From Caldilineaceae bacterium (lineage in GTDB: Bacteria > Chloroflexota > Anaerolineae > Caldilineales > Caldilineaceae): a stretch of DNA of 51,940 nt. The notes beneath the pieces are model-generated. The model searched no databases. It had not been told where the DNA came from and worked only from the letters and a program-made list of their open reading frames with translations. Where the stretch lies: the NCBI GenBank assembly GCA_020433455.1, contig JAGRCP010000024.1, positions 1 through 51,940 on the forward strand, given 5' to 3'. Position numbers and translations under genes: made by a program. Positions 1 through 5,358 of the stretch are shown here, piece by piece (within the stretch, counting starts at the first letter, position 1; each line of letters begins with the position of its first letter).

Positions 1-2491
1 CCTTGGGCGTGATCTTGCCGACCAGAATATCGCCCGGCGTCACTTCGGCGCCGATGCGGATAACCCCTTCTTCATCCAGGTCCTTGAGCGCGTCCTCACC
101 CACGTTAGGAATATCCCGGGTGATCTCCTCAGGACCGAGCTTGGTTTCCCGCGCGTCCACTTCGTGCTTTTCCACATGGATGGACGTGTAGCGGTCTTCC
201 TGCACCAGTCGCTCGCTCACCAGGATGGCGTCCTCGTAGTTGCCGCCTTCCCAGCTCATATAGGCGACAACCACATTCTGCCCCAGGGCCAGCTCGCCGC
301 CCTCGGTGCTGGAGCTGTCGGCCAGAACCGAGCCTTCTTCGACCCGATCGCCCTTGAAAACCCGGGGGCGCTGATCGATACAGGTGCTCTGGTTGCTGCG
401 ATTGTATTTGCGCATGTGGTACGTGCGGCGAGCGCCGTCCTCCTCCTGCACCACAATCTCCGCACCGGTGACGCTCACCACCTCGCCCGGATAGCGAGCC
501 GTAAGCACCTGACCGGAATCGATGGCCGCCTGCCATTCCATGCCGGTGCCCACTACGGGCGCATCCGGCTTGACCAGCGGCACGGCCTGGCGCTGCATGT
601 TGGAGCCCATCAACGCCCGGTTGGCGTCATCGTGCTCCAGGAAGGGAATCAGTGCGGCCGAAACGCCCACGATCTGCTTGGGCGAAACGTCCATGTATCG
701 CAACTGCTCCGGCTGGGCAAAGATAAAGCTCTCGGCCCGGCGAGCTGACGGACGGGGATTCTGAAATTCGCCGATCGCGTTCAGTTCGGAAGAGGCCTGG
801 GCAATGGTTGCTTCTTCATCTTCATCCGCCGTCAGGTAAATCACATCGCGGCCGGCAAAAGCCACCACGCGAATCTGGGCGTCCGGCTCATCGACGAAGG
901 CCTTTGCAATCGCCTGCGCCATCGCAGTATCGATGACATCGCCCTTCTTGGCGATCACCGCGTCGCTGGACGGGTCCGACACATCGGCCCGCAGTTCATG
1001 GCCGACCAACTCCTCGGCCACGGGCGGCAGGAAGGTAAAGACCCGGCGATAGGGCGTCTCCACAAAACCGAAATCGTTCACCCGGGCAAAGCTGGCCATG
1101 GAGCCGATGAGGCCGATGTTGGGGCCTTCCGGCGTCTCGATGGGACAGATGCGCCCGTAGTGGCTAAAGTGGACGTCACGCACGTCAAAGCCGGCGCGCT
1201 CGCGGCGCAGACCGCCCGGCCCCAGAGCGCTGAGGCGGCGCTTGTGGGTCAATTCCGCCAGGGGATTCGTCTGATCCATGAACTGGCTCAACTGGCTGCC
1301 GCCGAAGAATTCCCGGGTCGCAGCCACCACCGGCCGGATATTGATGAGGCTCAGGGGCGTCACCTGCTCCGGGTCGCGGATGGACATGCGCTCGCGCACC
1401 ACCCGCTCCATGCGCAGAAGGCCGATGCGAATCTGGTTTTGAATCAGCTCGCCTACCGTCTTGATGCGGCGATTGCCCAGGTGATCGATGTCATCGGGGC
1501 GGCCCTGGCCCAGGTTAATGAGCACGATGCGGCGGATAACGGCAACGATGTCCTCGTTGGTCAGCGTGCGGGTCTCCAGGTCGGTATCCACGCCCAAGCG
1601 ACGGCTGAGCTTGTAGCGCCCCACGCGCCCCAGGTCATAGCGCCGGGGCGAGAAGAAGAGATTTTGTACAAAGCTCTTGGCATTATCCAGCGTAGGCGGA
1701 TCGCCCGGACGCAGCTTTTTGTAAAATTCAAGGAGCGCGTCATCCACGCCCTGCTCACTATTTTCGTAGTTATTGCTGGTGGAATCCCGCTCCAGCGTCG
1801 ATTCAATATACGGATGATCCGCGTCGATATCGATGTCTTTGAACAAATCGCGGATTTCATCGTCCGTGCCGTAGCCGATGGCGCGCAGCAGAAGGGTGAC
1901 CGGCAATTTACGCTTGCGATCGACCTTCACGCTGATGATGTCGCGCTTGCTGGTCTCGAATTCCAGCCAAGCGCCCCGGCTGGGGATCAGCTTGGCGCCG
2001 GCCAGGTCCCGACCGGTGCTGCGATCCTCTTCCACGGTGAAGTAAACGCCGGGCGAGCGAATCAGCTGGCTCACCACCACCCGCTCGCTGCCGTTAATGA
2101 TAAAGGTAGCCGATTCGGTCATCAGCGGGAAGTCGCCCATAAAGACTTCTTGCTCGCTGATTTCGCCGGTATCCTTGTTGACCAGCTTAATCTTTACCCA
2201 CAGAGGAGCCGAAAAGGTAATGTCACGATCACGGCACTCATCTTCGGTATATTTGGGATCGCCGAAATGAAAATCACCCAGATGAAGTTCCAGGTTTTTA
2301 TTAAAACTGACAATCGGAGAAATCTCCTCGAAAAGCTCGCGCAGGCCCTCACCCTTAAACCATTCAAAGCTGCGCAGCTGCACTTCGGTGAGACGAGGCA
2401 ATTCCAACACTGTCGGCGTACGTGCGTACGTCTTACGGACCGGGCGGCTGCCGGCCACAGCGTTCGATGTACCGTTTGGGGAAAACTTCAT
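1..2491 (-). CDS. rpoB: DNA-directed RNA polymerase subunit beta, N-terminal 830 codons (3' end beyond the window)
   Basis: This is the beta subunit of RNA polymerase. The open frame runs off the low-coordinate edge, so only about two thirds of a typical beta subunit is present. Recognisable beta landmarks, in order, are the N-terminal [15 protein letters not shown] segment, the [19 protein letters not shown] stretch, the fork-loop/rifampicin region near residues 397-425 ([18 protein letters not shown], then [13 protein letters not shown]) and GPNIGLI. The rifampicin-contact Asp, His and Ser equivalent to E. coli 516, 526 and 531 are all present, so the enzyme is predicted to be sensitive. 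The ATG at 2491 is supported by AAGGAG about 10 nt upstream. The gene is not preceded by rplJ/rplL, which usually sit upstream of rpoB; it has its own promoter and a long leader. rpoC is expected beyond the left edge. Confidence 0.97.
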
Positions 2492-2701
2492 AAAGAATTA
2501 GCTCCTTGGATCGCTATACGAGTGCAAAGACCCGCCATTCTCGACGATGCAGACAGACCCACGGCGGCTTAACAGAAACGACAATCGCACCCTGTCCGCC
2601 CTACAAAACAAATTTGACTTCCCTCCCGGTTACTGATTTACTTAGGACGCTAAATTGGAAAAAAGACTACAAAACAAACAGACTGCCGGTAAACAGCAAT
2701 A

Positions 2702-2764
2702 AGACACCTAAACGGAACTATCTTCCGGCGACATCGCCGAGATATTTCCGCCCATCAGGTGTCT
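2702..2764 (-). promoter_or_regulatory. Structured element in the rpoB 5' leader
   Basis: A perfect 8-bp outer inverted repeat (2702-2709 with 2757-2764) encloses two smaller stems. One is CGGAA/TTCCG with a 5-nt loop (2713-2717 with 2723-2727). The other is GGCGA/TCGCC within 2726-2739. The two inner stems share C2726 and G2727, so they compete for two bases. On the transcript this is a 63-nt element about 210 nt upstream of the rpoB ATG. A T-rich stretch follows on the minus strand (six T near 2660-2665), but not directly after a stem, so it is not a standard terminator. It matches no riboswitch family I know. It may be an attenuator, a protein-binding site or only a processing site. Confidence 0.4.
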
Positions 2765-2905
2765 GTCGTCCAACTCGATATAATCAAGCCGGTCATCACA
2801 ATATTTTCATGTTACTGACTGCATATTCAACCGAATGATATCAAATCATAACGATATTGCAGTGCAATTTTCAGCGTTCTGTGTACGTCTAAAACGCGAA
2901 TAAAG

Positions 2906-2934
2906 AATATACCACACCTTTCTCCGCTTGTCAA
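2906..2934 (-). promoter_or_regulatory. Promoter of rpoB
   Basis: On the minus strand TTGACA (2929-2934) is followed after exactly 17 bp by TATATT (2906-2911), a near-consensus sigma-70 promoter. The predicted start near 2899 gives a leader of about 400 nt before the rpoB ATG. It lies between the stop of the upstream gene (3021) and rpoB, so rpoB can be transcribed on its own. The AT-rich gap 2492-3020 contains no convincing gene. Confidence 0.7.
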
Positions 2935-3020: not shown

Positions 3021-3953
3021 CTATGCGACGTCTTTTTGCACCATGAAGAAACCCATGGCGTGATTGGGGTCGTCTTCCAGGGTAAGCGCGGCAACCTCTT
3101 CAGCGGGAATGACTTGGGCAAGGGCGGCGATTTCCAGCCAGGTTCGATAGTGGGGCAGCCAATCGGCAAAGCATTCAAAAAAGGCGGCGTGGCTCTGATC
3201 GGCCAAGGCATTGCAAATCAGAATGCGGCCGCCGGGACGTACCGCCTGCCACATCTGGCTGAGCACCGTTCGGGCCTGCCCGTCGTGCAAATAATTGAAG
3301 AGGATTGGCGCATAGATAAAATCTTCACCACCCACCCCGTAATCGGCCAGGCTATGCCGGCCATACGCCATGCCCCGAAGAGAAGTGCAGCGCACGCGCA
3401 CACCCTCCGGCCCATAGGTCCGGGCAATCCGCTCAAGGGATTCTTCATCACCGCCCAGGGCGACAAAATCGCCGATTTCACCTTGGGACAAAGCGAATGA
3501 AAATTCCACTTCACGCAGGTGGCCGGGCTCCAACACCACAACGGACGGCCGATCAACTTCCGCGGCCACAGCATCCAGCATTCTGCCGATATAGCTGCGA
3601 CGATAGCGGATGGCGCGGGCAAGGGGCGTATTGCTCGTATAGGTAAAAAGTGCCCGGCCGAGCGAACTCACGTCGTCCATGTCCACCGGTCGATAATAAT
3701 AGATGTAGTCAAAAAGAGTGGCGTTTGAACGGTGATTGCGAGCATAGTGAAAACCGCGGCCAATCAGTGGATCCTCGTGGATAAGTCGAGTCACCGGATG
3801 GGGGCGAAATACGTCGCGCACCAACTCCGTCCATTCTACATCATGGGTCTGTTGTCGGATCTGGCTTAGCTCAGCGGAAAGTAATGTTAACGCAGCGCCG
3901 ACTTCCCCTTGCAACAATGCAGCATAGGTTTCATTCAGAAAATCCTGAACCAT
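3021..3953 (-). CDS. Class I SAM-dependent methyltransferase-like protein with a degenerate motif I
   Basis: A 310-residue soluble protein. The N-terminal ~120 residues are helical and contain HEDPLIGRGFHYARNH and a Tyr-rich IYYYRPVD segment. The rest resembles a Rossmann methyltransferase: a beta-strand VVVLEPGHLREVEF at the motif I position, an acidic patch (GGDEESLERI) and a late strand PGGRILICNALAD like the post-motif III region. The layout recalls the extracellular-factor (3-hydroxypalmitate methyl ester) methyltransferase group, where motif I is normally GxGxGRE; here the glycines are mostly replaced. It may be an inactive or unusual methyltransferase. It ends 87 nt before the rpoB promoter -35 box and is transcribed in the same direction. 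Family assignment moderate, substrate unknown. Confidence 0.6.
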   Translation of the reverse strand: MVQDFLNETYAALLQGEVGAALTLLSAELSQIRQQTHDVEWTELVRDVFRPHPVTRLIHEDPLIGRGFHYARNHRSNATLFDYIYYYRPVDMDDVSSLGRALFTYTSNTPLARAIRYRRSYIGRMLDAVAAEVDRPSVVVLEPGHLREVEFSFALSQGEIGDFVALGGDEESLERIARTYGPEGVRVRCTSLRGMAYGRHSLADYGVGGEDFIYAPILFNYLHDGQARTVLSQMWQAVRPGGRILICNALADQSHAAFFECFADWLPHYRTWLEIAALAQVIPAEEVAALTLEDDPNHAMGFFMVQKDVA

Positions 3954-4344: not shown

Positions 4345-4827
4345 CTACATTCCCAAAGCCTGCTTGATTTCGGCCAGGGCGGCCTCTTCGTCCGCATTCA
4401 CCTTCTGACCGCCGATGCCCAGGAAATCTCCTTCCTTGGCGGCGTTGGCCGCGGCCTCGCCCAGCCCATAAAGCCACTGCTTCAACTCGGCAGCCTCCTC
4501 AGGGGATGCCTTGCTGTCAATCACTTCAGCGGCGTTGCGCACAATTCCCAACATCTGAGATTTAATCGCTTCCGGATCCCGTCCTTCAGGCTTGATCTGG
4601 GCTTCCTTGGCGCTGGCGCGATTCGTAAACTCAGACGCCATGGCATTCATCAGCTCAGAGTTACCCGACGACTGGGCGGCCTTGGCGATGGCCTGCGCGA
4701 CGGCGACGGATTCCTTGAGCGCGTCGCCGATGGCCGGACTGGACAAGGTAACGAGCGTCCCCACAGCCATGGGCGCCTGCATGAGCGCCTGCCATTGCTC
4801 GGCGGAAAAGTCTGCTTTGGTTGTCAT
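4345..4827 (-). CDS. Small helical protein of unknown function, linked to ndk
   Basis: A 160-residue acidic, Ala- and Glu-rich protein, probably all helical, with no signal peptide or membrane segment. I do not recognise its family. Notable stretches are MAPMAVG-like Ala/Met segments near residues 15-25, a run of amphipathic helices, and a Gly-rich FLGIGGQKVN turn near residue 135 before a final Glu/Ala helix. The ATG is well supported by GGAG 8-9 nt upstream. It starts 50 nt after the ndk stop on the same strand and is probably cotranscribed with it. Nothing in the sequence indicates a link to nucleotide metabolism beyond this adjacency. Confidence 0.75.
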   Translation of the reverse strand: MTTKADFSAEQWQALMQAPMAVGTLVTLSSPAIGDALKESVAVAQAIAKAAQSSGNSELMNAMASEFTNRASAKEAQIKPEGRDPEAIKSQMLGIVRNAAEVIDSKASPEEAAELKQWLYGLGEAAANAAKEGDFLGIGGQKVNADEEAALAEIKQALGM

Positions 4828-4877: not shown

Positions 4878-5324
4878 CTATTCAAAAATCCAGGCATCAA
4901 CATTGCGGTCCCATGCGATGAGATCCTCGCCGAACCAGAGGGCAATCTCGCCGGCAGCCGTATCAGGGCCGTCGCTGGCGTGAACCAGATTGCGACCAAT
5001 CTCCAGGCCGAAGTCGGCGCGAATAGTGCCCGGTTCAGCTTCGGCGGGCTTGGTTGCGCCGACGGTCTTACGCACTACGGCAATAGCGTCCGTCCCTTCC
5101 ACGACCAGAGCCACGACGGGAGAGCTGGTAATGTAGGTGATGAGGCCATCGAAAAAGGGGCGGCCTTCATGCACGGCATAATGCGCACGCGCCAGTTCTT
5201 CGTCGACGTGGACCATCTTCATGGCCGCAAACTTTAGGCCGCGGCGCTCAAAGCGCGCGAGGATTTCGCCGATGAGCCCGCGCTGAACCGCATCCGGCTT
5301 CAAAATAATAAAGGTGCGTTCCAC
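4878..5324 (-). CDS. ndk: Nucleoside diphosphate kinase
   Basis: Transfers the gamma-phosphate of ATP to nucleoside diphosphates through a phospho-histidine, balancing NTP/dNTP pools. The 148-residue length is normal. The start ERTFIILKPDAVQRG and the active-site segment NLVHASDGPD are clear, with catalytic His115. The usual HGSDS is HASDG here, a mild variation. I place the start at the GTG at 5324 because GAGGAG lies 8-9 nt upstream and the family begins with M-E-R-T-F; the in-frame ATG seven codons earlier (5345) contains the ribosome site inside its reading frame. A TATAAT box lies about 35 nt upstream of the start. Confidence 0.95.
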   Translation of the reverse strand: MERTFIILKPDAVQRGLIGEILARFERRGLKFAAMKMVHVDEELARAHYAVHEGRPFFDGLITYITSSPVVALVVEGTDAIAVVRKTVGATKPAEAEPGTIRADFGLEIGRNLVHASDGPDTAAGEIALWFGEDLIAWDRNVDAWIFE

Positions 5325-5358
5325 TTTAATAACTCCTCGTGTCAATTTTCTTTGGTAA

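Follow-up and report, generated by a model that had tools for sequence, protein, structure and literature searches.

A candidate pause or leaky attenuator site in the rpoB leader of Caldilineaceae-like Anaerolineae: a conserved hairpin and its fixed 3′ tail

The rpoB gene of a Caldilineaceae bacterium (assembly GCA_020433455.1) lies on the minus strand at the start of contig JAGRCP010000024.1, positions 1 to 51,940 of which form the window analyzed here. Upstream of the gene we find a promoter, a long leader, and within the leader a structured RNA element; the data are from metagenome-assembled genomes (MAGs), and the transcription start is placed from the promoter. The features are:

2906–2934, minus strand: rpoB promoter, TTGACA, 17-nt spacer, and TATATT, with extended −10 TG (11 of 12 consensus matches)
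2492–2899, minus strand: rpoB 5′ leader, ∼400 nt (start site from promoter spacing)
2702–2764, minus strand: hairpin of the conserved element (fold; covariance models R1 and R2)
2764–2755/2711–2702, minus strand: stem P1 (fold)
2751–2746/2717–2712, minus strand: stem P2 (fold)
2744–2735/2730–2719, minus strand: stem P3, with a 2-nt bulge and loop 2734–2731 (fold)
2691–2708, minus strand: conserved 3′ arm of P1 and single-stranded tail, GGTGTCTTATTGCTGTTT (single copy; column counts from 20 genomes)
2692, minus strand: predicted 3′ end of paused or terminated RNA, tail position 17 (published NusG-pause geometry, PMC12288461, applied to the tail)
2502–2506, minus strand: Shine-Dalgarno sequence AGGAG of rpoB (sequence)
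2–2491, minus strand: rpoB, 5′ part of the gene, cut by the contig end (Pfam Rpb2 domains)

Farther upstream on the minus strand are two ORFs without a Pfam match (3021–3953 and 4345–4827), and the next ORF (4878–5345) is a nucleoside diphosphate kinase.

The original prediction, made by reading the DNA alone, was that rpoB has a strong minus-strand promoter of its own and a leader of ∼400 nt, and both parts hold: the near-consensus sigma-70 boxes TTGACA (2934–2929) and TATATT (2911–2906) lie exactly where they had been placed, and a start near 2899 leaves ∼400 nt to the rpoB ATG (2491). Such own-promoter leaders are the norm among Anaerolineae. Promoters matching at least 10 of 12 consensus positions were found within 600 nt, in the rpoB direction, in 49 of 64 Chloroflexota rpoB upstream regions (same-genus genomes among these not being independent), as compared to 9 on the opposite strand and a mean of 2.0 (maximum 7) after shuffling. 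We also observed a YYGC motif exactly six bases after the −10 box in 24 of the 49 Anaerolineae rpoB promoters (CTTTAT-TCGC at 2905–2896 in the window), a spacing that suggests a conserved start region.

In many bacteria rpoB sits downstream of rplJL, which carries the L10 leader. That rplJL is missing upstream of rpoB here had been noticed correctly and taken to suggest a separate control of rpoB. The arrangement is ordinary in the Chloroflexota loci examined, where rplL directly precedes rpoB at only one of 24 (L062). The rplJ gene is on another contig (G000:C48:2937), which it shares with nusG, and is preceded by a genuine L10 leader (55.7 bits, cut-off 44). The window itself does not reach the L10 leader (RF00557) model score, and its Rfam scan gave no credible match even at E 10, in agreement with the earlier failure to recognize a riboswitch. 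The usual rplJL–rpoB order would favor viewing the element as a displaced ribosomal protein L10 leader, but the lack of any credible Rfam match and the true L10 leader before rplJ refute both this and a known riboswitch, an identity that we regard as practically dismissed.

An 8-bp outer stem, foreseen at 2702–2709/2757–2764, was found exactly as given, with AGACACCT (2764–2757) pairing with AGGTGTCT (2709–2702); in the minimum-energy fold it reaches 10 bp. For the 81-nt element the folding energy is −35.2 kcal/mol, as compared to −20.0 ± 2.9 kcal/mol for shuffled sequences (z = −5.2), and none of 200 shuffles equaled it. Two inner stems had been proposed to compete for two bases; they are present, but in the best fold they sit nested end to end (6 + 5 + 5 bp), and since relatives keep the nested order, competition is not a conserved feature. 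The element extends beyond the stem first described: conservation is highest in the 3′ arm and tail (2708–2691), a segment that is unique in the 5.25-Mb genome of this organism at up to two mismatches.

Used as a nucleotide (BLAST) query against 99 relatives, the whole leader yielded zero matches, so structure was needed for finding further copies. The relatives that carry names are Caldilineaceae MAGs. A hairpin of 55–75 nt followed by the fixed 3′ tail C-N-U-A-U-U-G-Y-N-N-U-U-U occurs in 20 genomes from 13 genera of Caldilineaceae-like Anaerolineae; read across rpoB upstream regions, the common layout is 5′ AAGRCACC, the variable nested hairpin, and then GGTGYCTTATTGYNNTTTT. Tail columns U8, U10, U11, U16, and U17 are each kept in 20 of 20 genomes and G12 in 19, so that the stem base and tail are conserved while the hairpin body and loops vary in sequence. 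Each genome has one copy, which rules out a regulon of several genes. In every carrier except G005 the copy shares a contig with rpoB and lies upstream of it; in G005 the copy is at a contig end and likely also linked to rpoB. The distance to the rpoB ATG is 42–266 nt (17 measured). Conserved structure and tail in 13 genera, despite upstream regions that differ from genus to genus and leaders diverged past BLAST detection, argue against chance, and we are highly confident that the rpoB leader contains a genuine conserved RNA element. Its promoter, structure, conservation, single copy, and position are all computed directly from the genomes.

In genera g2, g9, and g16 of the same family the element is missing or no longer recognizable, and control of rpoBC therefore does not need it. 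In the leaders of genus g9 (L024–L030), what follows the near-consensus promoter is different sequence, GC-rich and prone to form hairpins. Scanning 396 Anaerolineae genomes with each covariance model gave, outside the family, only four weak matches (G273, G117, G118, and G397), in scans whose strict filters, with 11 candidates scored per genome, missed known copies found by restricted searches and may thus let remote copies escape. Three of the four outside loci (L157–L159) are without rpoB, and the incomplete genome G273 yielded no rpoB; loci L151 and L157 resemble plain terminators of the same shape.

Covariation was assessed in two groups, A (10 sequences: the window, L003–L006, L008–L011, and L015) and B (seven sequences: L013, L014, L016, L017, and L019–L021), each with a structure hand-chosen from its members; they were modeled separately because a joint MAFFT alignment misplaced the inner stems. 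In group A both partners have changed in 13 of 26 pairs, and 88% of cells are paired; the covariation score is 0.394, as compared to 0.257 ± 0.022 for shuffled alignments and at most 0.187 for slid controls. As P1 is nearly invariant within group A, this signal comes from the inner helices. Group B has weaker counts in the same direction, its score being reached by two of 500 shuffles. Between the groups, P1 itself shows compensatory A-U to G-C and C-G to U-A changes, so that the covariance-model check proposed at the outset returned compensatory changes in P1 and the inner stems alike. Model R1 (group A) scores the window, which belongs to its training set, at 59.6 bits (2688–2768), and also retrieves copies from outside that set in G005 (64.1 bits) and G011 (35.5 bits). 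Model R2, built from group B only with the window's group left out, retrieves the window at 2689–2768 (30.5 bits, E = 7e-7) and also L018 (29.3 bits). The two models, built from separate groups, thus cross-detect the element. Reverse-strand matches to the same hairpins, which are expected, score below the sense match.

As an intrinsic terminator of canonical form (hairpin plus U-run, d above 0) the element fails in 17 genomes, with d of −4 to −22 in group A and −40 to −49 in group B (−4 to −49 overall); the tail is too interrupted, and a strong intrinsic terminator is ruled out. Of the 49 leaders with a promoter, 14 do have a canonical terminator after it and ahead of rpoB, as compared to 2 on the opposite strand and 0–4 in shuffles, which makes rpoBC attenuation plausible for the lineage; the leader in the window has no canonical terminator, only the conserved element. 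The seven group B leaders are modular, with a terminator, a box, the hairpin element, and a last hairpin: the terminator module is CCCAAC...GTTGGG plus a T-run (CCCAACCC..GTTGGGTTTTTT in L013, L016, and L021), the invariant TGGTAGNNAGCTTCC box stands ahead of the hairpin element, and a conserved CACCCGCCTTYNGGGTGA hairpin directly precedes the Shine-Dalgarno sequence. At two of these loci a T-box leader lies on the strand opposite to rpoB and points away from it (minus strand; L016:603–955, 97.2 bits, above the cut-off of 93; L021:552–886, 89.1 bits, below the cut-off).

The arrangement of a conserved stem base and tail around a variable body suggests a reader of the stem base and of the dozen nucleotides that follow it, as RNA polymerase, together with Nus factors, would be at a pause or terminator. 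In Bacillus subtilis, NusG-dependent pauses have a hairpin 11–12 nt before the RNA end and a non-template TTNTTT motif at −11 to −6 (PMC12288461), and NusG-dependent terminators have terminal A-U pairs and interrupted U-tracts (PMC8060035). The element resembles these sites in its hairpin, TTNTT motif, interrupted U-tract, terminal A-U pairs (group A), and the pause-type loop of the organism's NusG; it differs from the pauses in the G at the last motif position and, in group B, in the missing terminal A-U pairs and first T, an absence of A-U pairs which, by the same published work, would favor pausing over release. With the RNA end set at tail position 17 (2692), group A reads TTATTG at −11 to −6 (TTGTTG in two sequences) and group B NTATTG, with T at −10, −8, and −7; G replaces the last T of the motif in 19 of 20 copies (tail position 12). 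The stem base in group A is mostly AA:UU, followed by the interrupted U-tract, and the window retains one of the two A-U pairs.

The organism's own NusG reads WYVVRNSPGVTGF, with the pause-type loop RNSPGVTGF, and resembles the pause-type NusG of B. subtilis, WYVVRNTPGVTGF. Of the pro-pausing residues (N81 and T82 in B. subtilis) N is kept and T is replaced by S, and the loop is otherwise identical. A G-10/Y-1/G+1 elemental pause match is present in 19 of 20 copies; it is only a weak hint, because G-10 falls inside the conserved stem and B. subtilis RNA polymerase is reported to differ from this consensus (PMC7819879).

On these grounds we tentatively propose, at somewhat short of an even chance, that the element is a cis-acting pause site or leaky attenuator for rpoBC, a strength of belief set by a NusG fit that was made after the tail was known and carries no chance estimate. 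In this view rpoBC forms a transcription unit of its own, and RNA polymerase would start near 2899, from the consensus promoter, to transcribe first the long nested hairpin and then the fixed tail. The hairpin base and tail would most likely pause the polymerase, and partly terminate it, ∼10–12 nt past the hairpin with the aid of NusA and NusG, and only a fraction of transcription would continue into rpoBC. Such a checkpoint could tie rpoBC output to the supply of polymerase or Nus factors, a feedback that is possible because polymerase is both machine and product. Pausing or termination, the role of NusG, and feedback are what we infer from the features of the element. A more specific version, rather unlikely, is an autogenous sensor: a Nus-factor-dependent leaky attenuator whose read-through would report the balance of RNA polymerase and Nus factors in a lineage with rpoBC apart from rplJL.

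The main rivals to a pause site are nuclease processing and protein binding. A binding site for RNA polymerase itself or another factor, serving autogenous control of rpoBC at the RNA level, would account for a fixed stem base and tail beside a variable hairpin body and for the single copy before rpoB; yet the loops that proteins usually contact, both internal and apical, lack conservation, and at 42–266 nt from the ATG a direct block of the ribosome site is improbable, so we consider such a site unlikely. Very unlikely is a decayed or accidental terminator with no regulatory role, which would suit the terminator-like shape, the poor U-tract, and the absence from some genera, but sits badly with structure and tail kept in 13 genera whose leaders are otherwise beyond BLAST detection. 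If the hairpin instead serves RNA processing or stability, RNase III-type cleavage of the long helix, or cleavage within the AU-rich tail, would define the 5′ end of the mature rpoBC message. The helix of ∼21–26 bp is compatible with this, and several relatives have a canonical terminator ahead of the element; in the rplL–rpoB spacer of Escherichia coli, an attenuator is likewise followed by a processing site. Barry et al. 1980 reportedly established attenuation together with processing in E. coli rpoBC, a precedent for such a site. RNase III sites, however, need no fixed sequence, whereas the stem base and tail are nearly invariant, and we rate processing, too, as unlikely.

By acting after initiation, through RNA ahead of rpoB, the proposed pause or leaky attenuator would be related to the E. 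coli rpoBC attenuator and processing site, reportedly described by Barry et al. 1980, Newman et al. 1982, and Steward and Linn 1992 (cited in PMC1242208 and PMC6181997). The E. coli attenuator is situated within a shared operon, between rplL and rpoB, whereas here rpoBC is transcribed from a promoter of its own and the element is a conserved hairpin with a fixed tail. A close parallel in kind is Lacto-rpoB RNA (RF01709) of Lactobacillales, a conserved RNA that takes its name from rpoB and was judged probably cis-regulatory (Weinberg et al. 2010, PMC2864571): both are structured, conserved RNAs of a single lineage tied to rpoB, probably cis-regulatory and not riboswitches, and the element, like Lacto-rpoB, lies in the 5′ UTR of rpoB. 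They differ in phylum, and the window does not attain the RF01709 covariance score (up to E 10), nor does RF01709 appear among Rfam matches of 17 relatives up to E 5. A cyanobacterial rpoBC leader (cluster 245), predicted to be conserved and structured and likened by its authors to the E. coli attenuator (PMC1242208), is a further conserved structured rpoBC leader from another phylum, the comparison made here being one of description. Matching no Rfam family, the element is a new RNA family, and leader control of rpoB or rpoBC is already known elsewhere.

The control of core RNA polymerase dosage is only partly understood, and much of the evidence comes from E. coli, in which ribosomal genes are part of the rpoBC operon. 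With rpoBC standing alone behind a conserved leader RNA, the present lineage offers a clean case for polymerase-dosage control; it also places next to Lacto-rpoB a further lineage-specific rpoB leader RNA from a different phylum. If the element is indeed a pause site, NusG-dependent pausing would be linked to the synthesis of RNA polymerase itself.
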